The notes under the pieces were generated by a model that was not told where the DNA came from, did not search any database, and worked only from the letters and a program-made list of their open reading frames with translations. The position numbers and the translations under genes were made by a program. A stretch of DNA of 52,728 nt from an uncultured Eubacteriales bacterium (GTDB taxonomy: Bacteria; Bacillota; Clostridia; Peptostreptococcales; Anaerovoracaceae), in NCBI GenBank assembly GCA_902779185.1, contig CACZAM010000008.1, positions 1 through 52,728 of the forward strand, read 5' to 3'. Positions 79-20,682 of the stretch are shown here, piece after piece (the first letter of the stretch is position 1; each line of letters opens with the position of its first letter).

Positions 79-82
79 GGTC

Positions 83-105
83 TGGTGGATGATCAGGGGC
101 TCGAA
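83..105. repeat. attL, 23-bp att core copy
   Basis: This sequence is identical to 20660-20682, the CCA end, acceptor arm and T-arm 3' half of tRNA-Lys. Bases on either side differ between the two copies, so the identity stops exactly here. No other tRNA sequence is present at this end. Confidence 0.9.
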
Positions 106-168
106 TTGCGTATACTTTTTTAGACGAAACGCTGTAAGCGTTGAAAAGAAAGGAGTTGGCATCGTCTA

Positions 169-185
169 AGGACGCGATTTTTCTG
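169..185 (+). repeat. 17-bp terminal inverted repeat, left copy
   Basis: The sequence aggacgcgatttttctg is the exact reverse complement of 20541-20557. Both copies lie roughly 80-120 bp inside the att cores, as expected for arm-type sites of a tyrosine recombinase. The role is inferred. Confidence 0.65.
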
Positions 186-276
186 AAATGTACCCAAAAA
201 CGTACCCAAGAAAAAGGCATAATCCTGAGTGATATCGCATTGTTGACCTGATTTATTATTAGGTGTTTTTCATTGA

Positions 277-316
277 AGTATCCACAAAGCAAATTAAATT
301 GCGGATACTTTTTTTA
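277..316 (+). terminator. Hairpin terminator at left end
   Basis: The stem AGTATCCACAA pairs with TTGCGGATACT (10 of 11 pairs) and is followed by a run of T. The stem sequence recurs in a second hairpin at 4213-4250, so the pair brackets the XRE-ImmA/PIN and CBASS cassette. Confidence 0.65.
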
Positions 317-418
317 TAGGGGTAGTTAGGTGTTGATCGTATGATCATTTTAAAGATTTTATAATGGAATAATGTATAAACGAGAGTCCTTTCTATAAGA
401 TGGATAACTACCGCCATG

Positions 419-446
419 TTTACTTTTTGAAAAAAATAAGTATAAT
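419..446 (+). promoter_or_regulatory. Promoter of XRE-ImmA gene
   Basis: TTTACT (419-424), a 16-bp spacer and TATAAT (441-446) form a sigma-70/SigA-type promoter 22 bp before the ATG. A strong AAGGAGGG ribosome site follows at 453-460. Confidence 0.6.
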
Positions 447-467
447 ATAAACAAGGAGGGAAGTGAT

Positions 468-1508
468 ATGTTTGCTAAGAACCTGAAATACTATCGGCTG
501 AAGAATAATCTGTCAAAGAAAGATCTTGCTTCTATGGCAGGGATTTCTTCTATGGCGATAACTCATTATGAAAATGGGAACAGAAAACCTGAGATGGATG
601 TTATTAAAAAACTGGCATCCGTTCTAAATGTCAGTGTAGTGGATTTTATTGCTTCTAGAAATCAAAGCCTTGAGTTTTCACATGAAGAATTCAGGAAGAA
701 TAGCAAAATGAGTAAGAATAGACAGGAATACATCAGGGAATCTGTGGAAGAGTATTTCAGCAGATTTTATGATGCTGTTGAAATGCTTGGAGGAGAAGTA
801 CTTCCTGAAGCACCGGAAATCAGAAAAATCGCTTTAAGTGATGATGTTGAAGAGAATGGTCGGGCTTTACGTCGTTATCTAGGCATAGCAGAAAAAGGTC
901 CGGTAGGAAATCTTGTGGAAATAATTGAGAACAAAGGTGTCCTTTTGTATATGTTTGATCCAGACGAATCTGATTTCTCAGGGATAAACGGCACGGTTTG
1001 TGAAAGACCATATATTGTAGTAAATATGAAAATGACTGCTGAAAGGATACGTACTACCATTGGCCACGAGACTGCACATTTCGCATTTGATTGGCCTGAA
1101 GATATGGATGACAAAACTAAAGAGGATATGGCAACTGCTATAAGCGGAGCTTTTCTATTTCCAAAAGAGGATGCATTCAGAGAATTAGGTATTCGAAGAC
1201 GTGCTGTCACTACGGATATGTATATTGTTTGTAAGGAATATGGAATTGCCTTATCTATGCTTGTAGTTAGAGCACGTAAGTGCGGGATAATAAGTGAAAC
1301 GGTATTCAGGAATTATTTCATCTCTCGTAATAGAAATGGTGGAGCAAAAAAAGAAAGAAGTTTTATACAAGCAGAAGAGTCTCGCCTATTTGAACAGTTG
1401 GTATATAGAGCTATTAATGAGGAGGAAATCTCTATACACAAAGGTGCGGAACTCCTGAAAATGCCATATGACAAAGTCGAATTGAATTGTAGGTATGCCG
1501 AGGTGTGA
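468..1508 (+). CDS. XRE-family regulator fused to ImmA/IrrE metallopeptidase
   Basis: The N-terminal ~65 residues form an XRE helix-turn-helix (LSKKDLASMAGIS followed by ITHYENGNRKP). Residues ~110-280 carry an ImmA/IrrE (COG2856) zinc peptidase domain with HETAH at 200-204. Proteins of this build act as repressors or antitoxins, or cleave a partner repressor in mobile elements. The gene ends 3 bp before a PIN-domain gene, and XRE-COG2856/PIN neighbours are a known predicted toxin-antitoxin arrangement. It could instead be a general element regulator. A SigA promoter and an AAGGAGGG site with 7-bp spacing support the start. Confidence 0.85.
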   Translation: MFAKNLKYYRLKNNLSKKDLASMAGISSMAITHYENGNRKPEMDVIKKLASVLNVSVVDFIASRNQSLEFSHEEFRKNSKMSKNRQEYIRESVEEYFSRFYDAVEMLGGEVLPEAPEIRKIALSDDVEENGRALRRYLGIAEKGPVGNLVEIIENKGVLLYMFDPDESDFSGINGTVCERPYIVVNMKMTAERIRTTIGHETAHFAFDWPEDMDDKTKEDMATAISGAFLFPKEDAFRELGIRRRAVTTDMYIVCKEYGIALSMLVVRARKCGIISETVFRNYFISRNRNGGAKKERSFIQAEESRLFEQLVYRAINEEEISIHKGAELLKMPYDKVELNCRYAEV

Positions 1509-1511
1509 TGA

Positions 1512-2012
1512 ATGGAATTCATTAGCAGCGACACAAATGTCTGGATAGATTTTTTCTCAATAGAAAAACTAAAGCTGCCATTCAGACTGCCGTGTAAATA
1601 CATTATGTATGAGGTTACAGTTGAAGACGAGCTGATAAAGCCATCTGATCTTGGCAATCTTTTAAAAGAATGCGGTCTTGAAGGCATCGATATATCTAAT
1701 GAAGAATACTTTTTAGCGGAAAAATTCAATGCTGAGTATAAACAGACTTCAATACACGATTGCATTGCATTAGCCGTAGCGAAGTGCAGAAGTATAACTC
1801 TTCTGACTGGAGATAAACATCTTAGAATAGCCGCTGAAAAAGAAGGAGTTGTAGTTATAGGAACTATAGGGATTCTGGATCGACTGATTGCTGGAGAGTA
1901 TATAACAGTAGAGGAATACAGGGAGTGCCTGATTTTACTAGAACATTTAAACGGAGGGGTTGTCAGATTGCCTAAAAGTGCAATTAGAGAAAGATTAGAA
2001 AAGACAAAATAA
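1512..2012 (+). CDS. PIN-domain protein, probable toxin
   Basis: This 166-residue protein starts with SSDTNVWIDFF, the first acidic motif of a PIN nuclease. A central glutamate-rich part follows, then SIHDCIALAVAKC and LLTGDKHLRIAA carry the remaining acidic residues, which fits a metal-dependent RNase fold. It starts 3 bp after the XRE-ImmA stop, so the two are cotranscribed. By family knowledge it is probably an RNase toxin whose activity is held by the upstream protein. The target is unknown. It may belong to the COG3093/PIN-like variants paired with ImmA proteins. Assignment to PIN is good; the toxin role is inferred from context. Confidence 0.75.
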   Translation: MEFISSDTNVWIDFFSIEKLKLPFRLPCKYIMYEVTVEDELIKPSDLGNLLKECGLEGIDISNEEYFLAEKFNAEYKQTSIHDCIALAVAKCRSITLLTGDKHLRIAAEKEGVVVIGTIGILDRLIAGEYITVEEYRECLILLEHLNGGVVRLPKSAIRERLEKTK

Positions 2013-2061
2013 CTGAAAAACACAATATATTGTGCTCAAATTAAAATACAACAACAATATA

Positions 2062-2091
2062 TTGACATATCCGAGGAAGTGTTCCTATAAT
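2062..2091 (+). promoter_or_regulatory. Strong promoter for CBASS leader
   Basis: TTGACA (2062-2067), an 18-bp spacer and TATAAT (2086-2091) match both SigA consensus hexamers. It lies about 275 bp before the CD-NTase start, implying a long 5' leader. Confidence 0.75.
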
Positions 2092-2366
2092 AATTACGCA
2101 CATAAAACAAGAAGACAAAAGGCGGCAACCTCTTGTCTCCTGAGAAGCATATGTGAGCTAATGACAAACATACACTTTATAAGCAAATACAGTTTATCAT
2201 TGCCTCCTAGGTGTTTCAAGTTTTATGTGATGAACATCATAAAACAACTTTTTAGAAACATTGTGGGAGGTATTAATATGCGTGAAATATGAGACACTAT
2301 AGGATGAAATTAGAGAATAAGTTTTAAAGATATTGTTGAACATTGTTACGAAAGAAGGTAAAGAGA
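2092..2366 (+). other. CBASS 5' leader with hairpin and minicistron
   Basis: This untranslated region follows the promoter at 2062-2091. It has a hairpin with AGACAA (2113-2118) and TTGTCT (2133-2138), and a four-codon reading frame (see 2278-2292). A longer reading frame of 86 codons covers much of it, but its composition is not protein-like. A leader of this size before a toxic effector system could set expression level; this is inference. Confidence 0.45.
2278..2292 (+). CDS. Four-codon minicistron (M-R-E-I)
   Basis: ATG is preceded by GGGAGG with an ideal 7-bp spacing, then only CGT, GAA and ATA before TGA. The ribosome site is the best in the leader, yet translation would stop at once. 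It may be a leader peptide for the CBASS genes 75 bp downstream, or the start of a gene lost by mutation. Confidence 0.3.
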   Translation: MREI

Positions 2367-3266
2367 GTGAAATATTCAGAACAAACTCTTCAATTGTGGA
2401 CAGCACCGTTATCTCAGAGTGAAGAACAGCGAGCAGAAAACACTATAAAAATGATTCGTTCTGCGATTAACGATAATGATGAATTAAAAACAATGAATAT
2501 AGAAGTCTTCACGCAAGGATCGTTTGCAAACAATACTAATGTCCGCACAGAAAGTGATGTCGATGTATGTGTAATGCTGAAAGATACCTTTCACTGTGAA
2601 TATCCAGAAGGCGGTAAAGATGAAGACTATGGTTTTAAATCTTCGGATTATACATTTTATCAGTATCGTGATCATGTTAAAAAAGCATTACAGGATAAGT
2701 TCCACAGAGAACATATATCTGATGGCAATAAGTCTTTAAAGATTAATGAGAACACATATCATGTAAAGGCAGATGTGGTTCCAGCATTTCAGCTTCGGAA
2801 CTATTATTATAATAAAAGCAAGTCTGCAGATAATTATGTGGAAGGAACCTGGTTTGTTTCAAAGACTGGCCAAACCATTGCAAACTATCCGAAGATACAT
2901 ATTAGGAATGGAACCCTGAAGAACAATCGAACCAATTACAAATACAAAAAACTGGTTCGTATCATGAAACACATCAAGAATAATATGGTGGATGATAAAA
3001 AGACTGATGGCAATATAATTACATCTTTTCTTGTGGAGAGCCTCGTATGGAATCTTCCTGACAGTATAATCACTGGCTATTACTCTTGGACTGAAACTGT
3101 GAGGCAGGCAATCATATATCTGTACAACGCGATTAATGACAATAAGCATCTGGAGTGGGGAGAGGTCAGCGAAATGCTATATCTTTTCCGTGGCCGTAAA
3201 TGGACAGATCAAGATGCAAAACAATGGTTATATGATGCCTGGAATTATTTGGAGTACAACAAATGA
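2367..3266 (+). CDS. CD-NTase (cGAS/DncV-like nucleotidyltransferase), CBASS
   Basis: The 299-residue protein has the polymerase-beta-type motif GSF at 51-53, the acidic pair SDVDV at 63-67 and a third acidic residue at D136 (KADVV), as in CBASS cyclic oligonucleotide synthases. On phage infection such enzymes make a cyclic nucleotide that activates the effector encoded next to them. I place the start at GTG 2367, which has GAAGG about 9 bp upstream. A TTG at 2343 would add eight residues but has no ribosome site. Its stop overlaps the next start (ATGA, 3263-3266), so synthesis of the pair is coupled. The clade and nucleotide product cannot be told by eye. Confidence 0.85.
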   Translation: MKYSEQTLQLWTAPLSQSEEQRAENTIKMIRSAINDNDELKTMNIEVFTQGSFANNTNVRTESDVDVCVMLKDTFHCEYPEGGKDEDYGFKSSDYTFYQYRDHVKKALQDKFHREHISDGNKSLKINENTYHVKADVVPAFQLRNYYYNKSKSADNYVEGTWFVSKTGQTIANYPKIHIRNGTLKNNRTNYKYKKLVRIMKHIKNNMVDDKKTDGNIITSFLVESLVWNLPDSIITGYYSWTETVRQAIIYLYNAINDNKHLEWGEVSEMLYLFRGRKWTDQDAKQWLYDAWNYLEYNK

Positions 3267-3859
3267 TAGGAGCATCAAAAAAGTTCATAGAAATAAGCAT
3301 TTGGGTTGCCATCGCTTTGTTTGCATTACGGTGTTGGGTAGGTTGGGCTGACCTTAATGCAACGATTTCAGGAAAGACGATTATTGAGTTTTGTTATTTA
3401 ATGTTCGGTTACGCAGGCGAAGCAATTGGCATCGCAGCTCTGTTCATGGCCGTATTTAACAAATGGTTGTGGAGATGGAAACCGCTGAATTTACTTGCGG
3501 GAGGAAAACCGATTCTTTCCAAAAGGTATAAAGCAACATTAAGATTTAAAGAGGCTGATCAGGATCAGGTACGTGATTCTGAAATCAGTATTGAGCAGAC
3601 ATTTCTGAATGTTTCTGTGAAACTTGAAACGGATGAGAGTTTTAGCAACTCGATTACGGCGACAATCAAAGAAGAAAATGGGTCAAAAATGCTTATCTAC
3701 ACCTACTTGAACACACCGAGAGCTGAAATCCAAGATATGAGTGCAATTCACTATGGAACAGCTATGCTAGATGTTAATGATCCAAAGCATATTACTGGAA
3801 ATTATTACACAACAAGACTATCACGTGGATCGATGGAGTTAGAAGCAATAAAAAAGTAA
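3263..3859 (+). CDS. cap15: Cap15-type CBASS membrane effector
   Basis: The 198-residue protein has two hydrophobic segments (about 8-27 and 41-66) followed by a ~115-residue domain rich in alternating beta-strand patterns. This is the build of Cap15, whose soluble beta-barrel binds the cyclic nucleotide and whose membrane part then disrupts the inner membrane. It overlaps the CD-NTase gene by 4 bp and no ubiquitin-like cap2/cap3 genes follow, so this is a minimal type I CBASS. Naming rests on topology and neighbour, not on a motif I can match residue by residue. A different small membrane effector is the alternative. Confidence 0.7.
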   Translation: MIGASKKFIEISIWVAIALFALRCWVGWADLNATISGKTIIEFCYLMFGYAGEAIGIAALFMAVFNKWLWRWKPLNLLAGGKPILSKRYKATLRFKEADQDQVRDSEISIEQTFLNVSVKLETDESFSNSITATIKEENGSKMLIYTYLNTPRAEIQDMSAIHYGTAMLDVNDPKHITGNYYTTRLSRGSMELEAIKK

Positions 3860-4135
3860 GTGAATTTCAATAACCACAGTAAAAATGCTAGGAGGAAGCT
3901 AATTTTAACTTTCAAAACGTTGATTGAAAGATGATCTTTTCTTGTATTTAAGTTGTAAAAAAGATGTTAAAAAGATGTATCATTTTTGCTTCAAAGTGAT
4001 TCGTTTCTCTTTAGAAGTTAATTGCTGCAAAGGGGAGAACGAATCGTAATTCTTGACTAAGTCAACGTTGAAGATATTGCAATAGTGTCTTGTCATATCG
4101 AGCGTTGAATGTTTTACTAGTTGTTGGCAAACAAT

Positions 4136-4179
4136 AATCCAACACATCCAACGCGTTGGATGCGTTGGATTGCGTTGGG
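4136..4179. repeat. 36-bp palindrome with GCGTTGGA iterations
   Basis: The arms 4136-4153 and 4154-4171 match at 17 of 18 positions. The core catccaacgcgttggatg (4145-4162) is a perfect palindrome. GCGTTGGA or GCGTTGGG recurs at 4153, 4162 and 4172 with 9-10 bp phasing. It looks like a site for a dimeric or tetrameric DNA-binding protein; the protein is unknown. Confidence 0.6.
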
Positions 4180-4212
4180 AGATAGTGATCTGGTAATTGC
4201 TTATATATAGTC

Positions 4213-4250
4213 ATATCCGCAAATCTGTTAATTTTGCGGATATTTATTTA
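4213..4250 (+). terminator. Hairpin terminator after CBASS
   Basis: A perfect 11-bp stem (4213-4223/4233-4243) with a 9-nt loop is followed by an AT-rich, T-containing tail. The stem shares TATCCGCAA/TTGCGGATA with the hairpin at 277-316. Confidence 0.6.
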
Positions 4251-4500
4251 AATAATGTCATAATAGATACATAAAATAACAATTAAAAATGATATTTAAC
4301 GAAAAAGGTTATCTGAAATAGTAAATGCACATGTGAAGATGTAACCGCACTCTCCAACCAGAAATAATTGGTTTTGTGCAGTTACGACTTCGTAATTGCC
4401 GCAGTTGCAGTTGTTAGTGCTTCACTGTTTGGGATTTTCTGTTAGAATTGGTCCAGGAATTCGCACGTTAAAAGAGCGGGCTGCACAGGTCAAATAATTT

Positions 4501-5936
4501 TGCAGTTGAAAGTGCACTCCGTTTTCAGCAGTTATTGTGCGTATCCTGCCTGTCGTATATATAGTTTCAGCTTATTTCTTGAGAAGCTCCGGTTTCAGGC
4601 AGAGCTCTTTGAGTGGTATGTACTTCAGGCCGAGCCTGGCGGCAGTCTCTTTGCCATATTTGGCTGCAAACACCTCGTATGGGGACTTGGCATTGAGGCT
4701 GGCGCGAGGCAATGAATTGATGTGATTCATCATAAGAGTGACATCCTCCTGAGTAAGATCGTCAAAGCAGGATCCTTTAGGCAGAATGTATCTGATGAAT
4801 TCGTGGTTGCGCTCACAGCGGCTCTTCTGGTTGGTCTGCTGCGGATCACAGTAAAACACGCGGCACTGGAATTCACCGGTCTCCTGATCGATCTCAATTG
4901 AGGACGGATCAGTGAACTCAGTACCACGGTCAACTAAAATGACCTCAAATATGCGGGAAAACGAATCTCCCATCACTTCGCGAAGAAGCGCGTATGCAGC
5001 AGCAACCCCGGCTGCTGCTTTTGCGTCTCTTAGAAACATGAGCTGCACACTGCAGTCCCTGAAGAAGATAGTCAGTATGACTTTGCCGCCCTTGGTGCCC
5101 TCTACTGTATCCATTTCAGACACTTTTGCTCCGGGATGTTTCTCGAGATGATCCAGGAATTCCGCATAAGACCTCCCTACATGGCATTTCTTGTCGACAT
5201 GTAATTCAGGACCGCTCTTCTGTCTGGCGGGTTTCCTGCGGACCTTCCTGTGAAGATCCAGATTGTCGACATCAAAGGCTCCTTTGTCTATGTAATCGTA
5301 CAGAGTCCTTTCAGAGACAGGCATGCTGTCAGCGTATTCGGCATAAGCGACCGGCAGAGAAACTCCGTTTTTTATGAGAGGGATCACGGTTGCAGCTATG
5401 TATTCCATCTCAGACTCACTGAGTGAAATGCCGGCTCTGGACTCTGAAAGAACACGTTTATACGCCTTATGAGCATATTCAGCATCATAAAGCCTCTTAG
5501 CAAGAGGGCATGGTATCCGATCAGCACAGCCATTGCAGCAATAAGGCGGCTTAAGGAGCTTAGGGCAAATCTCGGGCTCATAACGATCACAGTACTTTGC
5601 ACACTGGGAGCATGCGATGTTACACATTTTCTTAGTACACACAGGTGCCGGACATTTGGATGTGTCTTCAAATATGCATTCATATCTGAACTTGCATTTG
5701 CTTCTGGCCGGTTTGCCTTCGCCTCGTACGTGAGCCTTTATTTCACGGCTTATGCTAGTACGGTTCTTACCTGTAGCATCAGCTATCCTGGAAAAACTCT
5801 GGCCAAGAGTAAGAGCTCTCTGGATGAGCAGTCTTTCGTCATATGTAAAGTGTTTCATGATGGATCCTTTCCGGCAGGATACAGGTGCAATTGTAGCTAA
5901 AACTTGGGCATGAAAAAACGTGAAGTTGAAACTGCA
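4501..5936. mobile_element. IS30-family insertion sequence
   Basis: The element holds one transposase gene on the minus strand. Its ends carry imperfect inverted repeats: 4501-4518 and the reverse complement of 5919-5936 agree at 13 of 18 positions and both begin TGCAGTT. No target duplication is obvious, so the exact ends are approximate. It lies in the cargo between CBASS and the restriction genes and appears intact. Confidence 0.7.
4572..5858 (-). CDS. IS30-family transposase
   Basis: The 428-residue protein begins with the IS30-type helix-turn-helix (YDERLLIQRALTLGQSFSRI and KNRTSISREI). A cysteine-rich insert at about 55-120 is probably zinc-binding. The DDE catalytic core has D250 (SEMDTVEG), D310 (LVDRGTEF) and E349 (CERNHEFIR, then LPKG). 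All three acidic residues are present and the frame is open, so the enzyme should be functional. It moves its own IS by cut or copy through a circular intermediate in this family. Length fits the longer IS30 branch found in Clostridia. Confidence 0.92.
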   Translation of the reverse strand: MKHFTYDERLLIQRALTLGQSFSRIADATGKNRTSISREIKAHVRGEGKPARSKCKFRYECIFEDTSKCPAPVCTKKMCNIACSQCAKYCDRYEPEICPKLLKPPYCCNGCADRIPCPLAKRLYDAEYAHKAYKRVLSESRAGISLSESEMEYIAATVIPLIKNGVSLPVAYAEYADSMPVSERTLYDYIDKGAFDVDNLDLHRKVRRKPARQKSGPELHVDKKCHVGRSYAEFLDHLEKHPGAKVSEMDTVEGTKGGKVILTIFFRDCSVQLMFLRDAKAAAGVAAAYALLREVMGDSFSRIFEVILVDRGTEFTDPSSIEIDQETGEFQCRVFYCDPQQTNQKSRCERNHEFIRYILPKGSCFDDLTQEDVTLMMNHINSLPRASLNAKSPYEVFAAKYGKETAARLGLKYIPLKELCLKPELLKK

Positions 5937-6072
5937 CTACAGCCAACTTCACGCCTCCGCGATCCGAAATGCACTTTTTATTTACATTTACTTATACAAT
6001 TAACCTATTTAACGAAAAACCGTCAAATATCATTTTAAACTGCTGAAATGGAACAATCAAAAGTATTTCCGG

Positions 6073-6105
6073 AGCGGGACGCAATGTAAGCGTCCTGCTT
6101 TTTTA
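6073..6105 (+). terminator. Intrinsic terminator right of IS30
   Basis: AGCGGGACGC (6073-6082) pairs with GCGTCCTGCT (6090-6099), with one G-T pair, and is followed by TTTTTT. No plus-strand gene ends here now, so its gene was probably displaced or cut by the IS insertion. Confidence 0.7.
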
Positions 6106-7110: not shown

Positions 7111-7147
7111 AAGCCGCTGTTTTATGCATTTCAAAAGGCGGCTTTTG
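7111..7147 (+). terminator. Hairpin before restriction operon
   Basis: AAGCCGC (7111-7117) pairs with GCGGCTT (7138-7144), followed by only a short T run. It lies 30 bp before the first gene of the restriction cluster and may be an attenuator or weak terminator. Confidence 0.4.
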
Positions 7148-7174
7148 ACTTGGAAAAATGAGGAGGGTTCTCAA

Positions 7175-7471
7175 ATGGCAAAAAGAAATGTAACGAAAGT
7201 GGAACGCGAGACAATCGTGAACTTCAATGAGGCTGAAGATACAGCTATCATCTACACATTCAACAATGACCTGAAAAAAAGACTGGCTGTATTTGCAAAA
7301 AAATATCCGGATCTTTGTAGGCTGACCGTTGACGATGCTGATTTCGGCAGCGTGACATATGAGATCCAGAAAGCCAGAGTTTCTATCCGGTTGGTAGCTC
7401 CTTATAGCGAAGAACGCAGGAAAGCAGCGAGCGAGTATGCAAAAAAGAATGGTATCAATAATAGAAAATAG
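7175..7471 (+). CDS. Conserved small protein of restriction loci, function unknown
   Basis: I place the start at ATG 7175, 7 bp after AGGAGGG, giving 98 residues that begin MAKRNVTKVERETIVNFNE. An upstream ATG at 7124 is less likely. The protein is charged, without a signal peptide or membrane segment. It has an N-terminal strand-rich part and a C-terminal helix with SEERRKAASEYAKKNG. Proteins like this occur widely in mobile elements of Clostridia, but I know no tested function. It stands first in a series leading into hsdM, so it may regulate or accompany restriction. Confidence 0.6.
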   Translation: MAKRNVTKVERETIVNFNEAEDTAIIYTFNNDLKKRLAVFAKKYPDLCRLTVDDADFGSVTYEIQKARVSIRLVAPYSEERRKAASEYAKKNGINNRK

Positions 7472-7544
7472 CAAGTTGAATCAAGTAGTTATCCGTGGTA
7501 TTTTAAAGATGATAATCATTGGAATTACAGCAGGAGAAAGCATT

Positions 7545-7742
7545 ATGGCTAGACCAAAGAAAAATGGCACTTATCTGAATGTCTGCATTGAAACTCCTAT
7601 CTATGAAAGATTGGAAGCTCTTTGTGATGACGCAGGACAGACGAAGACTGTTGCTGTTGAGAGAGCATTGACAGCATATCTTGATAATTACGAAGAAAAA
7701 CAAAAGATACTTAAAGAGCTGGAAAGCAGCTCCATGAAATAA
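7545..7742 (+). CDS. Ribbon-helix-helix-like small protein
   Basis: The start is ATG 7545 with AGGAG 9 bp upstream, giving 65 residues. A frame open from 7437 is not needed. LNVCIETPIYERLEALCDDAG looks like the strand and first helix of a CopG/Arc ribbon-helix-helix protein, followed by KTVAVERALTAYLDNY as the second helix. It lies 17 bp before hsdM and probably binds DNA as a dimer to regulate the restriction operon. That role is inferred. Confidence 0.6.
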   Translation: MARPKKNGTYLNVCIETPIYERLEALCDDAGQTKTVAVERALTAYLDNYEEKQKILKELESSSMK

Positions 7743-7759
7743 AGAAAGGGGCTGTGATA

Positions 7760-10497: not shown

Positions 10498-10498
10498 C

Positions 10499-10942: not shown

Positions 10943-10944
10943 TA

Positions 10945-13900: not shown

Positions 13901-14151
13901 CCTTCCGCAACGGTGAAGTAAAGACTACAGGGACTGACATTGATAAGCTCATGCCACCGGTTTCTCGCTTTGGTGGGGGCAACAGGGCAGCCAGGAAACA
14001 GACAATAATAGATAAGCTTAAGGCATTTTTCGAAAGATTCTTTGGCATTGGTGATTCCACATTCACAAAAATTGAGGAGGTTAATAAAACATACAAGTTT
14101 GATCAGGAAACTTTGCCGATGGTAGCAGAGGAATCGGACAAATACGATTAG
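10945..14151 (+). CDS. hsdR: Type I restriction endonuclease subunit R
   Basis: The 1068-residue motor and nuclease subunit has an N-terminal PD-(D/E)xK nuclease site (D154 and E168-L-K170 in YDATVLVNGLPLVHIELK). A superfamily 2 helicase follows, with Walker A TGSGKT at about 327-332, Walker B DECH at 426-429 and motif III GFTGTP. The C-terminal ~350 residues are helical and bind the M2S core. It translocates unmodified DNA and cuts it far from the recognition site. Length is normal and no key residue is missing. It starts 2 bp after the small gene at 10499-10942 and is last in the operon. Confidence 0.95.
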   Translation: MSYFNIVAQTTENTVVTEYESVKKRSDGYQSEAELEKDFIRILTEQGYEYLPIHTEAELLQNLRMQLEKLNSYQFSDKEWSRFLSDNVANPNEHIVEKTRKIQEDYVQVLKRDDGTSKNIKLIDKTNVHNNYLQVINQYVISQGQGAKHDNRYDATVLVNGLPLVHIELKRRGVAIREAFNQINRYQRDSFWAGCGLFEYVQIFVISNGTNTKYYSNSTRFNAIKDHKSATGKKEKTSNSFEFTSYWADANNVIIPDLIDFTRTFFARHTILNVLTKYCIFTSEDMLMVMRPYQITATERILNRIEIANNYKKYGSVAGGGYIWHTTGSGKTLTSFKAARLASNLPYIDKVLFVVDRKDLDYQTMKEYDRFEKGAANSNTSTAVLKKQLEKDDCRIIITTIQKLSTFVKKNPGHDVYQKHVVIIFDECHRSQFGDMHTAIVRNFKKYHLFGFTGTPIFAANAGAVRNPQFFTTEQTFGDQLHTYTIVDAINDKNVLPFRVDYIKTMDTDPDIDDEEVWDIDREKAFMAPERIRLVTKYILDHFDQKTYRGDKTYIFNVLTNISDVASANKGAIEEVKQKQRVSGFNSILCVASVPMAKLYYQEFKKQIATDPTKSLRIATIYSYGANEAEADGVLDEENSEDTSALDQSSRDFLDAAIRDYNEMFHTNYSTDGDKFQNYYKDVSLRMKNKELDILIVVNMFLTGFDATTLNTLWVDKNLKMHGLIQAFSRTNRILNSIKTFGNIICFRNLQKRVDDAIALFGDKNASGIVLLKTFNDYYNGYLDDTGEKHPGYVDLMNELEVKFPLSQPQIIGEQNQKDFISLFGAILRMRNLLSSFDEFAGRELISERDLQDYLSRYQDLRDEWRKKHEGGEKEDITDDIIFETELIRQIEINIDYILLLVKKYHDSHCQDNEVLITIQKAVDASPELRSKKALIETFIAGINDVDDVMTEWRSYVSEERERQLMQIITEEKLNEAETRRFLEDSFRNGEVKTTGTDIDKLMPPVSRFGGGNRAARKQTIIDKLKAFFERFFGIGDSTFTKIEEVNKTYKFDQETLPMVAEESDKYD

Positions 14152-14181
14152 AAAAGAGGAAAGAATAAAAACAATCTTCAT

Positions 14182-14215: not shown

Positions 14216-14244
14216 ACACATATACAGGATGGAGGTGATAATAA

Positions 14245-15300
14245 ATGTCAGAAAACAATAACATAATACGAGCTCCGCTTGAGATGTACACCGCGGCGGA
14301 TGTCGAACCGAAGGAGGTACAGTGGCTCTGGAAGCCATATATTCCATTCGGGAAGGTGACGGCCATTCAGGGGGATTCCGGCGATGGTAAGAGCACTTTC
14401 GCTCTCAACCTCGCGGCGCTCCTTACCCGGGGTGACGCTCTTCCGTTCACAGAGGAGTCAAATGGCCCAATGAGGGTGATTTATCTCAATGCAGAAGATG
14501 ATGCAGACGATACCGTAGTGCCGCGCTTCATGAAAGCCGGAGGCATACGCGATCGTCTCGTTTTTATTTCCGAAAAGAAACAGAGGCTCAACTTCGCAGA
14601 CAACAGGATCAGAGAAGCAATCGAGAGAACCGGAGCTAAAGCCTGCATCATTGATCCGGTCGCAGCGTATCTCGGTTCGGATGTCTCAATGAATCTTGCT
14701 AATGAGGTGAGACCTCGTTATGAGTCGCTGATTGAATTCAGCCGTGATACAGGCTGCGCAATCATTCCGATAGCGCACATGAACAAGGCTGAGGGCATGA
14801 AAGCGAATGCGAGAATGAATGGCTCGGTCGACTTCGTGGCGGCGCCAAGAAGCGTGCTGACCATCGGGAGGCCGCCTGATGATGAAGATCCCGATCACAG
14901 AGTCATGGCACACAGCAAATGCAACCTGGCGCGTCTCGGTCCATCGATCCTCTTCTCGGTCAGTGATGGAGTCGTGGAGTTCATCGACACAGTCGACATC
15001 ACAGCCGATCAGCTTGTTGGCGCGTACGGAGCGGCAAAGGCGAGGGAGACCAAGCAAGCTGTCGCAAGGCGCGAGCTCTTCGATATACTCTCCAGAGGGC
15101 CGATGCCCCAGAAGGAGATCATGGCGAGGATGAGTGAGCTGGGCATCAGCCAGCGCACTTGCGAATTGGCCAAGGGTACGCTGCCGATAGAAAGTGTCCG
15201 TGAAGGCGGATGCTTTGTATGGCGGCTTGCCAGCAGGCCGGATGGCAACAATGCAACAATGCAGGGCGATACCCCTTTTACGCTATTGCACTGCATGTAA
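14245..15300 (+). CDS. RepA-like AAA (RecA-fold) ATPase
   Basis: The 351-residue protein has a Walker A GDSGDGKST near residues 40-48 and a NAEDDADDTV segment, a hallmark of AAA_25 / RSF1010 RepA-like hexameric helicases. Walker B-like ACIIDPVAAYLGSD and a sensor histidine in IPIAHMNK follow. The C-terminal ~90 residues look like a winged helix. Such genes sit beside relaxase genes in mobilizable elements and probably aid replication or strand unwinding of the excised circle. It is preceded by GGAGGTG. It lies before the oriT-like site and the MobV gene. Confidence 0.85.
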   Translation: MSENNNIIRAPLEMYTAADVEPKEVQWLWKPYIPFGKVTAIQGDSGDGKSTFALNLAALLTRGDALPFTEESNGPMRVIYLNAEDDADDTVVPRFMKAGGIRDRLVFISEKKQRLNFADNRIREAIERTGAKACIIDPVAAYLGSDVSMNLANEVRPRYESLIEFSRDTGCAIIPIAHMNKAEGMKANARMNGSVDFVAAPRSVLTIGRPPDDEDPDHRVMAHSKCNLARLGPSILFSVSDGVVEFIDTVDITADQLVGAYGAAKARETKQAVARRELFDILSRGPMPQKEIMARMSELGISQRTCELAKGTLPIESVREGGCFVWRLASRPDGNNATMQGDTPFTLLHCM

Positions 15301-15344
15301 GTGTTGCCACAGGGAGTCCAGAGGGAACATCTGGCCCACGTATC

Positions 15345-15383
15345 TTGCTTGCAAGGTGTAGTGGGTTACACTGCATCGGATGC
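15345..15383 (+). other. Predicted MobV-type oriT
   Basis: TAGTGGGTTACACT (15359-15372) resembles the pMV158-family nick region TAGTGTGTTATACTT. It is flanked by small inverted repeats CTTGCTTGCAAG (before) and TGCATCGGATGCA (after). The relaxase gene starts about 235 bp downstream. The match is by eye to a remembered consensus. Confidence 0.55.
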
Positions 15384-15439
15384 AGACATGCTCCGCAATA
15401 TGCTCCTCGTTGGAGGAGGAACATATTCGGTGCATGTCT
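15384..15439. repeat. 56-nt imperfect hairpin next to oriT
   Basis: AGACATGC (15384-15391) pairs with GCATGTCT (15432-15439), an inner CTCCTC pairs with GAGGAG around the loop GTTG, and further pairs lie between. There is no T tail. It may be a lagging-strand start site, a relaxosome structure or a regulator of mobV translation. Confidence 0.45.
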
Positions 15440-15618
15440 TTACGCAGTGGCGATCATCGTTTTGAATTGGTCGCCGCGAGGACTGCAGCATCCGGGGCAG
15501 TGTATTTTTCGTTCTCTCGCACAACAGATATTCAACAGATGGTTCGCAAAGACATCGCAAAAGGGTATCACAGTGCATTGTTGCGGTGTTATTACGCGGA
15601 AGAAAGGAGAACATTTTT

Positions 15619-16587
15619 ATGGCGAGTTTTGCAATATTACGGATTGAAAAACGCAAGCTTGGGAGCGTGACTCAGCTCAATAATCATCATGAAAGACTCA
15701 AAGAAAAGTATAAAAGCAATGAAGATATTGATCCGGAGAGAACGCATCTCAACTATCATCTCGTCAAACCTGATGGTAAATACAGACAAAAAATATTAGC
15801 CAGGATAAAAGAAGTCGGAGCGAAAAGAAGGAAGGACAGCGTGGTGATGCAGGATGTTTTGATCACTGCATCGCCTGACTGGATCGATGCGAAGACGTAT
15901 GAGGAACAGGTCGAATACTTCAATCACGCTTTCGATTTCATTGCTGATAGGTACGGCAGAGACAACGTTTTATCAGCAGTAGTACACATGGATGAAGCGC
16001 ATCCGCATATGCATCTGGTGTTCGTGCCGATCACTCCTGAAAGAAGACTTTCATCTAAAACTCTGATGGGCGGACCGAAGGGAATGGAAAAACTTCAGGA
16101 CGATTTTCACGAACACATGGTGAAAAAGTATCCGGATCTCACACGCGGGATCTCAAAGAAGATCACAAAGCGCAGACATATTTCATCACAGATGTATAAA
16201 AAGGCCGCAACCTTATACGGGCATTACGATGAGATTGTAAGTGCTATCGATGATATTGGCATGATCGGAAACATGAAAGCAAAGGAAGAGGCAAAAGAAA
16301 AGCTTGCCAAGTATGCGCCGGAACTCGCTACAGTGAAGGCTGACCTCGAGTCAACTCAGAAATATATCCAGACACTCGAGAACAGATTGAGCAGTAGTGA
16401 TGCGGTGATCGAGGGCAAGAATGCTGAACTGAACGCAAAGGATATTGCTCTTTATGAGGAAAGAAGTAAAGTGATACAGCTTGAATATCAGCAGAAGAAA
16501 CTGATCCAACTGCTCGAAAGAATCCCGCCGGAGATTAGAGATGATCTTATGAACGGAAAGAAACCAAAAGGGCGTGACGCGAGGTGA
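15619..16587 (+). CDS. mobV: MobV/Pre-family relaxase
   Basis: I place the start at ATG 15619 (MASFAILRIEKRKLGS) after AAAGGAG, giving 322 residues. The N-terminal MobV signature is clear: HHER with H24 in the place of the catalytic His of MobM, then DIDPERTHLNY at about 37-47, and the metal-binding motif HMDEAHPHMH at 123-132. The C-terminal ~100 residues form a coiled coil. It nicks oriT and leads the strand into a recipient using a helper's secretion channel. Together with the upstream oriT-like site it makes the element mobilizable. Confidence 0.93.
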   Translation: MASFAILRIEKRKLGSVTQLNNHHERLKEKYKSNEDIDPERTHLNYHLVKPDGKYRQKILARIKEVGAKRRKDSVVMQDVLITASPDWIDAKTYEEQVEYFNHAFDFIADRYGRDNVLSAVVHMDEAHPHMHLVFVPITPERRLSSKTLMGGPKGMEKLQDDFHEHMVKKYPDLTRGISKKITKRRHISSQMYKKAATLYGHYDEIVSAIDDIGMIGNMKAKEEAKEKLAKYAPELATVKADLESTQKYIQTLENRLSSSDAVIEGKNAELNAKDIALYEERSKVIQLEYQQKKLIQLLERIPPEIRDDLMNGKKPKGRDAR

Positions 16588-16732
16588 AGTCAATACAGAT
16601 AAAGCCTTAGGATGGTTGATAAGAGGCAGATAAAAACTGTTAAATACAGAAAAATACGGAATTTCTGTGGTATCATAAATGTGTTAAATTTCTTTAAAAC
16701 CAATTTGACGAATAATCAACAAGAGGTGAAAT

Positions 16733-17284
16733 ATGGGTATATTCACACCACCGGCAGGTGAAAAAACTATCCTCGAAAACGATTATGTTTCTTTAAATGG
16801 AACTAATGGTTCGGCGGTTCTTACGGATCAGCATATTTATCACATTACAACAGGTTTCTTTGGAGGTATAAAAGATGTCAACAAGTTGCCTTTGCGTCAG
16901 ATTCAAATCGAAAATGGAAAGGCTCAGGTTACTGTAAAGTTTGCTGTTCTTGAGGGTTCGAAACTGGTAGTTCGCGCAAACAACAGAACATATACCTACG
17001 CATTCACAAATACTCTGACAAATGAAGCGAAAAAATGGGGGGATTATATTACCCAAAAGCTTACAGGGTACACTGCAGATGTTGAACAGACAGGAGAGAT
17101 CGCAGAGGTAGCTTCACAGATCAAAGGAACCATTGATGCATTCAAGGGTGCTTTTGGAGTAAAATCTATGCTTAGCTCAAATGAGAAAGTCAACGGGAAG
17201 TGCAATGCGTGTAGAGCTCCTATCTCAGGCAATAAAGGTTCAGTCGTTCGTTGCCCTTACTGCGATACCGAGCAGAAGTTATAA
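16733..17284 (+). CDS. PH-like domain protein with C-terminal zinc ribbon
   Basis: The 183-residue protein has an N-terminal beta-rich domain (about 15-115) resembling bacterial PH domains (SAVLTDQHIYHI, FFGGIKDVNKLPLRQIQ), a linker, and a C-terminal zinc ribbon with CNAC and CPYC pairs. No membrane segment is seen. It starts a three-gene set with 9- and 18-bp gaps and has AGAGGTG before the ATG. It resembles YdjH/YdjG-type companions of SPFH proteins in Firmicutes envelope-stress loci. The exact role is unknown; membrane or protein recruitment is inferred. Confidence 0.65.
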   Translation: MGIFTPPAGEKTILENDYVSLNGTNGSAVLTDQHIYHITTGFFGGIKDVNKLPLRQIQIENGKAQVTVKFAVLEGSKLVVRANNRTYTYAFTNTLTNEAKKWGDYITQKLTGYTADVEQTGEIAEVASQIKGTIDAFKGAFGVKSMLSSNEKVNGKCNACRAPISGNKGSVVRCPYCDTEQKL

Positions 17285-17293
17285 GGAGGAAAA

Positions 17294-18403
17294 ATGGGAA
17301 TTGTAAAAGCTTTTACAGATTCTGTCAGCGGCTCTATAGCTGATCAGTGGATCGAGATTATAACTGCAGGTCAGTTCGATGAACGTACAGCTGTGACACC
17401 TGGCATTCTAATGAACAGAAATAACGGCAAAGGCGTTAACACGAACGGGTCTGAAGGTGTTATCACTAATGGTTCGAAGATATATGTACCGGAGAATACT
17501 GCGGCATTTATTTTTAGTGAATCTGCAATCGAGGAGATTCTAACTGAAGCAGGTGGATATGAGTATATAAATGGCGAGGAATCTGTTTTCAATACAGGCT
17601 CAGCATCCACTATAGTTGATCAGATTGCAAATAGATTTCAATATGGCGGTGTTTCTTCAAGCCAGAAGAGAATCGCCTTTGTAAACCTCAGAGAACTGCG
17701 TAATATACGCTTTGGAACCAAAGGCCCACAAGTGTATCATGACACATTCTATGGTGTGGATTTGGACATTTATGCATATGGGAATTTCTCAATAAAAGTC
17801 GTTGATCCGGTCAGATTCATCAGAAACTTCGTTCCGGCAAATGTGAGCTACTACTCATTCGATGATTTAAGAGTTAGGTCGCAGATAGTGGCTGAGTTCC
17901 TTCAGTCTTTCCTCGTTTCTTTAAATGTGCTGTCAAATCAGTATCGTCTTGCCCAACTTCCTTCTCATGCAAACGAGATCGTACAGGCAATAAAAAACGA
18001 TCCATACAACGCTGGCTCATGGAAGGAACGATTTGGTTTCGAGATTGGAAATGTAGCAATCGAAAACATCGAATTCTCTGATTCTGCTAGACAGCTTGTA
18101 AACAAATACGCATCGAAGAAGATGGATGTTAAGGCATATGAAGATGTTTCGCAGAAAGCTTCAAATATTGCTGCGCAGCAGAAAATTGCTGAAGGCATCC
18201 AGAACAATGGTTTCGGAGACGTTGGCGGAATGTTTGTTGGAATGAATATGGCACAGTCTGTAGGGGCAAATGCGGCTCCACAGCAAATCGTGTCATTTGA
18301 TCAACAGATTGAAATGCTAAAGAAGATGAAGGACCTTCTCGATGCTGGTATACTGACACAGGAAGAGTTTGATGCTAAGAAAAAAGAAATAATGGGTCTA
18401 TAG
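17294..18403 (+). CDS. SPFH-domain (YdjI/virion core-like) protein with SHOCT tail
   Basis: The 369-residue protein belongs to the COG4260 SPFH (stomatin/prohibitin) branch: it has DLDIYAYGNFSIKVVDPVRF and a long middle helix. A C-terminal SHOCT motif at about 336-369 (LKKMKDLLDAGILTQEEFDA) is a short oligomerization module. B. subtilis YdjI, a relative, assembles at the membrane with YdjF/G/H during envelope stress. There is no signal peptide. A strong AAGGAGG precedes it and the PH-like gene ends 9 bp upstream. Presence on a defence-rich element suggests a role in membrane protection, possibly against phage; that is inference. Confidence 0.75.
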   Translation: MGIVKAFTDSVSGSIADQWIEIITAGQFDERTAVTPGILMNRNNGKGVNTNGSEGVITNGSKIYVPENTAAFIFSESAIEEILTEAGGYEYINGEESVFNTGSASTIVDQIANRFQYGGVSSSQKRIAFVNLRELRNIRFGTKGPQVYHDTFYGVDLDIYAYGNFSIKVVDPVRFIRNFVPANVSYYSFDDLRVRSQIVAEFLQSFLVSLNVLSNQYRLAQLPSHANEIVQAIKNDPYNAGSWKERFGFEIGNVAIENIEFSDSARQLVNKYASKKMDVKAYEDVSQKASNIAAQQKIAEGIQNNGFGDVGGMFVGMNMAQSVGANAAPQQIVSFDQQIEMLKKMKDLLDAGILTQEEFDAKKKEIMGL

Positions 18404-18421
18404 TAAAGGAATAACTGATAT

Positions 18422-19129
18422 ATGAAACTCGTTAAAGTTGAATGTCCGAATTGTCATGCTAGTGTAGACTTTGACCTTGATAATCTCAAAACCACCTGTC
18501 CCTATTGTGATAGCAATCTTATTGTTGACTTCGATGCCGATCGTTATCTTGAAAACAAAGAAGAAACTATTCGTGAAAACAATAGACTGAAAGAATCCAC
18601 GATTCAAAAGGAGCAGGCGTATAAATATTTAGAGCGCACAAAAAAAGCGGACATAAGGCGTCAGAAACAGGCAGCTAAACAAAGAAAAGCTGAACTCAAG
18701 TATGAAGACAGAAAAAATAGGAGAGCTAGTATTAGCCCCGATGACAGATCTTTCTTAATAATATTTTTTTCTATGATGCTTATGGCCGCTGTATGCTTCG
18801 GGGTAGGACTTTTGAGTGACTTTTCAAACAATTTAGCACATCATGAGCAAGAAGACATTCAGCTTCCGGTGTCTTCGGAACAAATAAAGGAAGAAAAATA
18901 CACTTATCAGGAAGTCCAAGAAATATTTGAGACAGCAGGTTTTAATAATATCGTGCTCGAAAAAGATGAGGATGTAAAGATTGGAGTCTTAAAGAAGGAA
19001 GGCCTTGTTAAGAAAGTTACAGTGAACGGAGAAAAGAAGTTTGATAAAGGCTCATGGAGGGCGAAGGATGCCCGAATTGTAATAACCTATCATGCAAAAA
19101 AAGAGAAGAAATCAAAAAAGAAGAATTAA
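18422..19129 (+). CDS. Zinc ribbon, membrane segment and PASTA-like domain protein
   Basis: The 235-residue protein has an N-terminal zinc ribbon (C8, C11, C26, C29), a charged coiled coil (about 40-100), one membrane helix (110-131) and an outer domain (about 162-225). The outer domain, with YQEVQEIFETAGFNNI and a strand-ending ITYH, resembles PASTA modules of cell-wall sensors. The topology suggests a link between a cytosolic complex and the wall. It is the last gene of the SPFH module and is followed by a terminator. The family resembles YdjG. Function is not known to me. Confidence 0.65.
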   Translation: MKLVKVECPNCHASVDFDLDNLKTTCPYCDSNLIVDFDADRYLENKEETIRENNRLKESTIQKEQAYKYLERTKKADIRRQKQAAKQRKAELKYEDRKNRRASISPDDRSFLIIFFSMMLMAAVCFGVGLLSDFSNNLAHHEQEDIQLPVSSEQIKEEKYTYQEVQEIFETAGFNNIVLEKDEDVKIGVLKKEGLVKKVTVNGEKKFDKGSWRAKDARIVITYHAKKEKKSKKKN

Positions 19130-19157
19130 ATAACTAATAGTATTATTTATGGAAATG

Positions 19158-19184
19158 ACGGAGGTGTTTGACACCTCCGTTTTG
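19158..19184 (+). terminator. Terminator after envelope module
   Basis: A perfect 10-bp stem (19158-19167/19171-19180) with a 3-nt loop is followed by TTTG. It lies just before the integrase ribosome site and separates the two transcripts. Confidence 0.75.
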
Positions 19185-19207
19185 TTATGAAGAAAGGAGG
19201 TGCCGGT

Positions 19208-20497
19208 ATGGCAAACAAGATGAACAGCAGTGCCATTCTGGCATCTCTGTCACCGCAAGAAATCTTGGACTTCCAGGTCCGCAATGGTATGATTGACCTA
19301 GACGATGTCAGAGCGTCAATAGTGGACACAGAAAGGAAGAAAATACTTAAAGCACACCCATACGCGATCAGTCACGGCAAGGATGGCAGATGGCGCACAT
19401 GGGTGCCGGACAAAAATGCGAAAGACGGTCGCAAGAAAATCGCAAAATCTACAAAAGAAAAGATCGAAGAAGCAGTCGTCTGTTACTATCTGGAGAACGA
19501 TGAAGAGCTCAGGCGTAAGAGGATGACTCTGAGGGATCTGTACCCGGAATGGCTGGAGTATAAGAAGCTCCATTCCTCAGAGACGACTATCCCTAGAGTC
19601 GAGTCAGACTGGAAGAAGTATTATGAGAACGAGCCTAGTAGTGTTCCTATCATCGATAAAAGAGTCAGAGAGCTTACAAAGATCGAACTCGATGAGTGGA
19701 TTCACAAGCTGATACGTAAGTATGATATGACAAAGGTCAAGTATTACAACGCGTCGCTCATAATCAGACAGATACTTGATTATGCCGTAGAACTGGAGAT
19801 CGTGGAGGAGAATCTGTTCCGTAAGGTCAATGTCGACAGCAAGAGGATGTTTCGCAAGGTCCAGAAGAAGAAGGACTGCACACAGGTATATACGAAAGAA
19901 GAAGAGATCCTCATCTTTCGGGAAGCCTGGAACGACTTCAAGAACAGCAAGCGACTCGTGTACAGACTGGCTCCTTTGGCAGTGATGTTCCAGTTCCTGA
20001 CGGGAGTTCGTATCGGGGAACTGTGCGCACTCAAATTCGATGATGTTGAGAACGGAGTCCTTCATGTCGTCAGGATGCTGCAGAGAGATTCTGATAAGGT
20101 CGTGGAGCATACCAAAAGCCATGAGGACAGAGATGTGCTGCTGACCGATGCAGCTCTTGATATCATAGAGGTTGCGAGAGCGTATCAGGAGGAGCATGGC
20201 TGCATGGGCGAGTATATATTCTCTACCACAGAGGAAGCACTCAGTTACGCAGAAACCAACATTCTTTTGAAGAAGTATTGTAAAAGGCTAAACATCCTTT
20301 ACAGATCGTCGCATAAATCGCGTAAAACTTATATCTCATCGCTGATAGATGCCGGGATTAACATCAATACGATCCGTTCATATGCCGGCCATGCGGATGA
20401 GAGAACTACTTATTTCAACTATTGCTTTGACAGGGCGCCAGATGCAGAAAAGAAGAAACTTCTTGAAAAGGCTCTGGAGACACCTCTCCAGGGCTAG
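19208..20497 (+). CDS. int: Tyrosine recombinase integrase
   Basis: The start is ATG 19208, 7 bp after AAAGGAGG, giving 429 residues; an ATG at 19187 lacks a site. It has an N-terminal arm-binding part (DGRWRTWVPDK, Tn916/AP2-like), a core-binding SAM-like domain (about 105-205) and the catalytic domain. Catalytic residues are R268 (TGVRIGEL), K303 (HTKSHEDR), H369-xx-R372 (SSHKSRK), H395 (AGHADERTT) and Y405. All are present, so it should integrate and excise the element at the tRNA-Lys site. It lies beside attR, the usual layout. Confidence 0.95.
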   Translation: MANKMNSSAILASLSPQEILDFQVRNGMIDLDDVRASIVDTERKKILKAHPYAISHGKDGRWRTWVPDKNAKDGRKKIAKSTKEKIEEAVVCYYLENDEELRRKRMTLRDLYPEWLEYKKLHSSETTIPRVESDWKKYYENEPSSVPIIDKRVRELTKIELDEWIHKLIRKYDMTKVKYYNASLIIRQILDYAVELEIVEENLFRKVNVDSKRMFRKVQKKKDCTQVYTKEEEILIFREAWNDFKNSKRLVYRLAPLAVMFQFLTGVRIGELCALKFDDVENGVLHVVRMLQRDSDKVVEHTKSHEDRDVLLTDAALDIIEVARAYQEEHGCMGEYIFSTTEEALSYAETNILLKKYCKRLNILYRSSHKSRKTYISSLIDAGININTIRSYAGHADERTTYFNYCFDRAPDAEKKKLLEKALETPLQG

Positions 20498-20636
20498 GGC
20501 CTGTACCCAGCATATGTACCCAAAATCGCCTTTTTGTACCCAGAAAAATCGCGTCCTATCTATGCAGTTTTTCGTCTTAAAAGTGAATCAAACCAGCCTC
20601 AAACATTTGAAATTTCAACAGCCCGACAAAAGAAAA
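20498..20636. other. Right-end recombination region
   Basis: No gene is seen. Three GTACCCA motifs (from about 20502 to 20542), the 17-bp inverted repeat copy (20541-20557) and TTTCGTCT (20570-20577, matching the inverse of 122-129) fit recombinase and excisionase arm sites between the integrase gene and attR. Confidence 0.55.
20541..20557 (-). repeat. 17-bp terminal inverted repeat, right copy
   Basis: The sequence cagaaaaatcgcgtcct is the exact reverse complement of 169-185 near attL. It directly follows a GTACC motif. Confidence 0.65.
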
Positions 20637-20656
20637 ACCTCCGATTTCTCGGAGGT
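20628..20656 (-). terminator. Element-supplied terminator for tRNA-Lys
   Basis: On the minus strand an 8-bp stem (20649-20656/20637-20644) with a 4-nt loop is followed by TTTTTCTTTT. It starts 4 bp after the encoded CCA and lies inside the element, so the element replaces the terminator it displaced to 40-78. Confidence 0.8.
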
Positions 20657-20659
20657 CTG

Positions 20660-20682
20660 TGGTGGATGATCAGGGGCTCGAA
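20660..20682. repeat. attR, 23-bp att core copy within tRNA-Lys
   Basis: This copy is identical to 83-105. It forms the CCA, acceptor 3' strand and T-arm 3' half of the tRNA gene, so the tRNA stays whole after integration. Confidence 0.9.

Follow-up and report, generated by a model that had tools for sequence, protein, structure and literature searches.

Genetic organization and integration site

The window analysed here is the entire contig C8 of genome G000 (CACZAM010000008.1; 52,728 bp), a 79% complete assembly from an uncultured Eubacteriales bacterium related to known gut bacteria, and its first part (positions 83-20682, ~20.6 kb) is occupied by a putative integrative mobilizable element (IME) that carries defence genes and lies at a tRNA-Lys(CTT) gene. 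The congeneric comparison set consisted of 47 genomes of one Mogibacterium-like genus, available as draft assemblies. An initial annotation of the window had proposed that a 23-bp direct repeat, a tRNA-Lys site, an integrase, a MobV relaxase and a RepA-like ATPase define a mobilizable element devoid of conjugation genes, and these proposals are all borne out by the findings given below. The element is flanked by identical 23-bp copies of an attachment site (att), both on the plus strand and both supported by the exact repeat and by junction alignment, at 83-105 and at 20660-20682, the latter constituting the 3' end of tRNA-Lys(CTT) (20660-20735, minus strand), the integration target. When the first 23 kb were shuffled 200 times in two-base blocks, the longest direct repeat with copies more than 15 kb apart was 17 bp.

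In three congeners (G065:C11, G013:C37 and G003:C17) the sequence of the left flank joins tRNA-Lys directly through a single 23-bp att copy, from which it follows that 83-20682 is an integrated element. Window positions 1-105 are 98-99% identical to these sites, and identity to the three junctions is found to the left of 105 and to the right of 20660, with none in between. The breaks in identity that had been anticipated thus fall at 83-105 and 20660-20682, while the anticipated empty tRNA-Lys site was found in part: a single att copy is present in the three congeners, although a different element still lies upstream of it. One att position is T at these single-copy sites and C in both window copies. 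GC content, taken in 2.5-kb steps, lies between 0.36 and 0.46 in the first 20 kb and between 0.47 and 0.55 thereafter.

Positions 1-82 are the right-hand terminus of an adjoining integrated element that is truncated where the contig begins, and they contain a terminator hairpin at ~41-78. Positions 1-105 are 98-99% identical to the DNA that follows a tyrosine integrase gene in G065, G013:C37, G003 and G026, and a chromosomal nature of the left flank is ruled out, since in other genomes an integrase gene precedes these 82 bp. At six loci with this flank, the 82 bp are conserved at 98-99% in four and occur as a diverged version in G005 and G013:C42, and a tyrosine integrase frame of 458-489 amino acids lies upstream in all six; in G003 this integrase stands at the end of a 14.3-kb unit, which a further att copy delimits. 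The presence of an integrase upstream of the left flank places the window element between a second integrated element and the tRNA gene. The chromosome directly beyond the tRNA gene (20980-24378) encodes a 1132-residue protein with, as judged by eye, a zinc-ribbon-like N-terminus and a long Glu/Pro-rich repeat region.

Integrase and mobilization core

The tyrosine integrase (19187-20497, plus strand; PF00589, Phage_integrase, 3.3e-18) has a 96% identical copy beside tRNA-Lys in G011, and relatives occur at 10 named loci assigned to Mogibacterium sp., Candidatus Crickella caballi, and unclassified Clostridiales or Bacillota, for which the stated sources include sheep colon (one) and goat ileum (one). 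The motif GTACCCA is present twice near the left end (at 190 and 202, spanning 190-208) and three times near the right end (at 20503, 20516 and 20536, spanning 20503-20542), all on the plus strand, with no copy on either strand in the 20-kb middle, and these copies are candidate sites that probably serve as arm-type binding sites of the integrase. A 17-bp sequence at 169-185 (plus strand) has an inverted copy at 20541-20557.

The mobilization core comprises a RepA-like AAA_25 ATPase (14245-15300, plus strand; PF13481, 1.7e-26) and a MobV (Mob_Pre) relaxase (15619-16587, plus strand; PF01076, 1.6e-58). The relaxase aligns with the MobM structure 4lvi (1.6e-23) and keeps the H, ER and HxDE..PHMH motifs, among them the histidine that we take to be the catalytic one, and its relatives on plasmids (2037 records) are all less than 60% identical. 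The two genes are also neighbours in G011, G023, G016:C5 and G020 (70-85% identity) and in G004 (49%). The cores of G016:C5 and G020 sit beside tRNA-Ser(CGA) with integrases that are ~43% identical, which indicates that one mobilization core has been combined with different integrases. Among the 17 element proteins scanned with Pfam, smaller frames being outside the scan, no type IV secretion system (T4SS) or coupling protein family was found; together with the integrase, the relaxase and a predicted origin of transfer (oriT), this fits an IME.

The region upstream of mob (15240-15620) folds far more stably than 100 shuffled sequences (z -6.1), and the association of this structured region with mob in relatives prompted its interpretation as an oriT. 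The predicted oriT (15335-15371, plus strand) consists of a hairpin (15335-15365), whose 12-bp stem is split in two by a 1x2 internal loop and capped by a 4-nt loop, and of a predicted nick at 15365^15366 (TAGTGGG/TTACAC, cf. TAGTGTG/TTATAC in pMV158). The 3' end of the hairpin reads GTAGTGGG and is followed by TTACAC, the fold adding one G-U pair across the nick. The predicted core TAGTGNGTTAC is found upstream of mob in seven of eight aligned upstream regions, the window counted, and the eighth (G016:C40) starts at its contig end. The same region was rejected as a known RNA, as Rfam gave four matches, all with E values of 2.3-4.6; RNAalifold on five sequences returned 14 of 101 pairs with two-sided changes and a covariation term of 0.04, on account of which no RNA family is claimed. 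The stretch after the predicted nick (15366-15505) is large and structured, ends in a T-run and has hairpin sequences that differ among relatives; possible readings of it are a terminator, a single-strand origin and an RNA.

Predicted defence cargo and other features

Cargo occupies three slots. The first (209-4121) is an insert, as its flanking sequences lie close together in the small units G013:C57 and G026:C21. It begins with an XRE and ImmA-protease protein resembling the RmrA antitoxin of RosmerTA (468-1508, plus strand; PADLOC RmrA, 1.6e-41; HTH_3, 6.9e-15; Peptidase_M78, 21.6 bits at a cut-off of 22), followed by a PIN-domain protein as the likely toxin partner (1512-2012, plus strand; PF01850, a weak match at 1.8e-05). 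This pair is likely RosmerTA-like and is the least firm of three defence assignments. The remainder of the slot encodes a cyclic oligonucleotide-based antiphage signalling system (CBASS), with a CdnE-type cGAS/DncV-like nucleotidyltransferase (CD-NTase) as the synthase (2343-3266, plus strand; EfCdnE 7x4c, 6.3e-87; PADLOC Cyclase, 1.4e-111; SMODS, 2.8e-07) and a Cap15 membrane effector (3263-3859, plus strand; PF18153, Cap15_CD_rec, 9e-20; PADLOC 2TM effector, 5.6e-66; Cap15 structure 7n34, 4.4e-05), the overlapping frames placing both in one operon.

The second slot holds a pemK RNA, two small genes and a complete type I restriction-modification set. The latter comprises the methyltransferase gene hsdM (7754-9328; N6_Mtase, 6.1e-112), hsdS with two target-recognition domains (9325-10497; Methylase_S, 1.9e-42, in two stretches) and the restriction subunit gene hsdR (10945-14151; HSDR_N, SWI2_SNF2 and EcoR124_C; PADLOC REase_I, 1143.9 bits), all on the plus strand. 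Between hsdS and hsdR lies a gene for a PUA-like protein (10493-10942, plus strand, in a reading frame open from 10415; PF24405, 4.8e-16), which also matched, in part, the N-terminal portion of an NCBIfam model for an anti-phage phosphoesterase (48.4 bits against a cut-off of 420). The two small genes (7124-7742, plus strand) encode a 115-residue protein (7124-7471) and a ribbon-helix-helix-like protein (7437-7742; RHH_1, 20.4 bits at a cut-off of 20.5). The pemK RNA (RF02913; 6874-6953, plus strand; 45.1 bits, gathering threshold 34.8) recurs across three different IME types of the genus (besides the window copy, at L077:2065-2141, L078:8422-8498 and L119:11615-11695), and its position ~370 nt before the repA match in G023 suggests that it is the leader of a replication and mobilization operon.

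The third slot, an insert between mob and int, contains an SPFH group (16733-19129, plus strand) composed of a zinc-ribbon protein (16733-17284), an SPFH-SHOCT protein (17294-18403; Band_7_1 and SHOCT) and a zinc-ribbon transmembrane protein (18422-19129), the zinc-ribbon matches being below cut-off. The same interval holds two other genes in G011, and the mob and int matches lie ~310-350 bp apart in G023, G016:C5 and G020. The initial annotation had counted this group as one of four candidate defence or stress systems, of which three groups do match described defence families. Nothing supports the SPFH group as a defence system: PADLOC gave no match for two of the three proteins (the third being outside that scan) and NCBIfam none for any of them, and on these grounds the count of four is too strong. 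The SPFH protein had no solved relative by sequence at E 0.01; relatives at 31-36% identity occur in five other genomes of the 47, and around these distant homologues the three-gene group is not shared, short zinc-ribbon matches to the third protein (33-42 residues) being present at three of the five loci. The RosmerTA-like pair, the CdnE-Cap15 CBASS and the type I restriction-modification set likely protect the host and stabilize the element.

Besides the pemK RNA and the PUA-like gene, the analysis adds to the initial annotation an IS30-family insertion (4307-6005, minus strand; transposase 4572-5858, NF033563, 3.8e-29), bracketed by 14-bp direct repeats (4293-4306 and 6006-6019); a 14-bp target repeat is unusually long for this family. 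The adjacent non-coding stretch (4122-4306) is conserved in small units, at 80% identity over 185 bp in G013:C57 and 88% over 93 bp in G026:C21, and contains a near-perfect 36-bp palindrome (4136-4171).

The tRNA-Lys array across the genus

The att pattern, allowing C or T at one position, occurs in 57 copies in 23 of the 47 congeneric genomes (21 copies at tRNA-Lys and 36 elsewhere), and tRNA-Lys is an accretion hotspot in this genus. That unrelated islands are involved and the 23-bp repeats stem from chance or from homologous recombination between tRNA fragments, a process that could delete or gain units between direct repeats, is highly improbable in view of the complete absence of the reversed-letter control pattern (0 copies), of the recurring left-end families and terminators at the junctions, and of the junction alignments. 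Family-wide, the pattern was found in seven of 247 genomes, four of them in the genus, a figure that says little about arrays in other genera, which may have another tRNA-Lys end; in a single genome from outside the genus, a pair of att copies is spaced by 2.3 kb (G160:C31:220549-222905).

A terminator is a near-constant companion of the att copies. In the window, an element-borne hairpin (20631-20656, minus strand) stands directly after the tRNA 3' end. Across the genus, one of the 57 copies was set aside for its short flank and the other 56 gave 48 distinct upstream 70-mers, of which 45 have a hairpin and T-run whose start, read in the sense of the tRNA, is 0-8 nt away from the att copy, the exceptions being G033:C170, G021:C47 and G066:C56. 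Under the same rule, which was devised for this analysis and allows a start up to 18 nt from the att copy, positives were obtained for 87 of 1920 shuffles (4.5%) and 108 of 3000 random places (3.6%). Many right ends are homologous, so that the 48 are not independent, yet several different stem sequences are represented. This near-constancy suggests a constraint whereby elements that target a tRNA gene must replace its terminator as well as its 3' end, which could be checked in other lineages. No publication on the point was found by title or abstract opening, in a search that covered subscription journals thinly, and the literature search likewise found none on islands and integrases in this host group.

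The 20 complete att-to-att units include 7 with and 13 without an integrase, as determined by an iterated hidden Markov model (HMM) on frames of at least 60 residues; counting identical or near-identical units once, integrase-less units are 12 of 17, as three of the seven integrase-bearing units are one 8,839-bp unit and two of the 13 integrase-less units are one sulfite-reductase unit. In 50 proteins from integrase-less units (40 by Pfam at E 1e-8, 10 by NCBIfam at 1e-15), a scan that left out several frames, G033:C9, a 232-bp unit and the G015 copy of the sulfite-reductase unit, no recombinase or relaxase was found. The contents of these units include, at 11.5-11.7 kb, the anaerobic sulfite reductase AsrABC and siroheme enzymes; at 8.7 kb, two HGD-D dehydratase genes, a nitroreductase and LysR; at 6.3 kb, a beta-galactosidase, an MFS transporter and an AraC regulator; at 3.9 kb, AAA_21 and RloB; and at 1.4 kb, FMN reductase and HxlR; Fic proteins are also encoded. 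With the window IME the RloB unit shares, att included, 126 bp on the left at 97.6% identity and 172 bp on the right at 94.2%. The 8,839-bp integrase-bearing unit, which is of a different type, is 99.9-100% identical in G005, G024 and G026, whose chromosomal flanks on the same contigs are 69-86% identical (longest match per pair).

These observations bear on a different reading, possible but doubtful, in which the 23-bp copies form a cassette array whose integrase-less units depend for their movement on integrases that resident IMEs supply in trans, the window IME being one such provider. Under it, tRNA-Lys(CTT) might tentatively be viewed as an integron-like platform without IntI or attC, where self-contained operons (regulator, genes, terminator), each delimited by the 23-bp tRNA end, would be stored in tandem and moved in trans, each unit needing its own terminator so that the tRNA transcript ends properly. 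The preponderance of units without an integrase speaks for such an array, as do two distinct integrase-less units with one arm motif at both ends that is also found in integrase-bearing units, and a sulfite-reductase unit that is 98.6% identical between G015 and G026 despite a longest tRNA-flank match of 82% (896 bp). Other data speak against it. Twelve integrase-less units reach 700 bp or more (the 232-bp unit being too short for this count); three of them have the same motif at both ends, representing those two distinct units, and against them one has different motifs at its ends, two have a motif at the left end only and six have none of the three motifs at either end. The unit with mismatched ends (G024:C17:2512-10880, L076, 8.4 kb) has TTCCTCAA twice at the left and GTACTCAAA three times at the right, and looks as if two elements had been fused by deletion. 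Among the seven integrases, those of G013:C57 and G015:C48 are broken or partial, which points to decay being common here, and decay and cis-mobilization with a neighbour (cis-mobilizable elements, CIMEs) would account for the same pattern. Finally, the sulfite-reductase unit is possibly misbinned, as the stretches examined of its contigs hold no tRNA-Lys or chromosomal flank.

Proposed mechanism and current state of the element

The interpretation favoured here, with a probability of about 0.9, is that 83-20682 is an IME at tRNA-Lys(CTT) with defence cargo that joined a tandem array by site-specific accretion. The integrase would recombine the 23-bp att with the tRNA gene, probably binding the GTACCCA arm sites inside both ends, and insertion would rebuild tRNA-Lys and bring a new terminator. 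Once excised, the circle could rely on the RepA-like ATPase for its maintenance; MobV could nick it at the predicted oriT that precedes mob, and a conjugative element resident in the same cell could provide the pore for its transfer. By site-specific accretion the element would have entered the tandem array of tRNA-Lys units. It is plausible that the community also holds a helper conjugative element; of the 47 congeneric genomes, 25 have PF02534 coupling proteins.

Several points weigh against this interpretation. Excision and a circular form are predictions, the GTACCCA motif was picked after the fact, and a related integrase-bearing unit (G013:C57) has two copies of it at the left end and none at the right. 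The nick motif was dropped as significant by itself, with 0.64 chance occurrences expected per window, so that the oriT is a prediction only. PF02534 had no match in the window's own genome (79% complete), and the IS30-family insertion suggests that some functions may be decayed, the main frames being open. The assemblies are of draft quality, those named being mostly labelled metagenome-assembled genomes or isolate bins, and G013 has two tRNA-Lys loci (G013:C37 and G013:C42), one with a flank 99.96% identical to G005 over 2.3 kb, which suggests mixed bins.

Some of these data would also suit a former IME that has become a fixed defence island, its mobility ended by cargo inserts and an insertion sequence, in line with the IS30-family insertion between 14-bp repeats, with cargo that, compared with relatives, has entered at more than one site, and with the lack of a helper coupling protein match in the same genome. 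This is rather unlikely, since the element retains its integrase and relaxase, its two ends, the arm motif and the predicted oriT, and a sister IME in G011, with an integrase 96% and a relaxase 94% identical, carries other cargo between mob and int.

Phage-defence genes and metabolic operons thus share one tRNA integration site in a little-studied genus, and defence acquisition and niche change may therefore use the same carriers. A row of such units may serve as a parking place for transferable genes, and the platform idea and the terminator rule are the parts that specialists might want to test.

Comparison with known systems

IMEs, tandem accretion and CIMEs have been described previously (PMC5704250), and as integrase-less units are likewise known from the literature, the present element is a further example. 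The ImmA antitoxins with PIN partners that are known for RosmerTA-like systems (PMC10440598) resemble the pair of the first slot in having an ImmA-protease antitoxin with a helix-turn-helix domain beside a PIN-domain gene, the likeness here concerning gene content, with a weak PIN match. The integron is not matched: the junctions are tRNA-Lys ends, and the integrase scored 48.5 bits against a cut-off of 220 on the integron-integrase model, attC being outside the search.

Parallels are also offered by genomic islands. In Dehalococcoides, tandem islands are similarly separated by repeats of an RNA-gene 3' end, in that case ssrA, and 15 islands without an integration module, with 38 rdhA genes, have been read as possible cis-mobilizable elements; the cited passages describe a serine recombinase acting with ssrA, whereas the genus studied here has several tyrosine integrases and tRNA-Lys (PMC3146451). 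Additive flexible genomic islands with tRNA-Lys(ctt) repeats have been reported in Methylophilaceae, which belong to another phylum, and terminators are not mentioned in the corresponding passages (PMC10872708).

In pMV158 the nick falls at TGTG/TTATAC, where a hairpin terminates on its 3' side; this hairpin has a stem of 12 bp, a loop of 4 nt and a right-arm bulge of 3 nt (PMC5863519). The predicted oriT of the window has in common with it a hairpin whose 3' arm ends at the nick, the TAGTGNG/TTA context, a right-arm bulge and a position upstream of mob on the coding strand, and differs in its GC-rich basal stem, its 1x2 internal loop in place of the 3-nt bulge and the large structured region after the nick. 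With MobV IMEs such as IMESag-rpsI, as portrayed in passages of PMC5090054 and PMC5704250 that do not mention the bacterial group of the window element, the latter has in common an integrase, a MobV-type relaxase with an upstream oriT (in the window a predicted one), the absence of a T4SS and a gene 3' end as the target, restriction-modification or toxin-antitoxin cargo also being known in IMEs; set against these, its own features are the tRNA-Lys(CTT) target, three recognizable defence systems together and the RepA-like AAA_25 ATPase.

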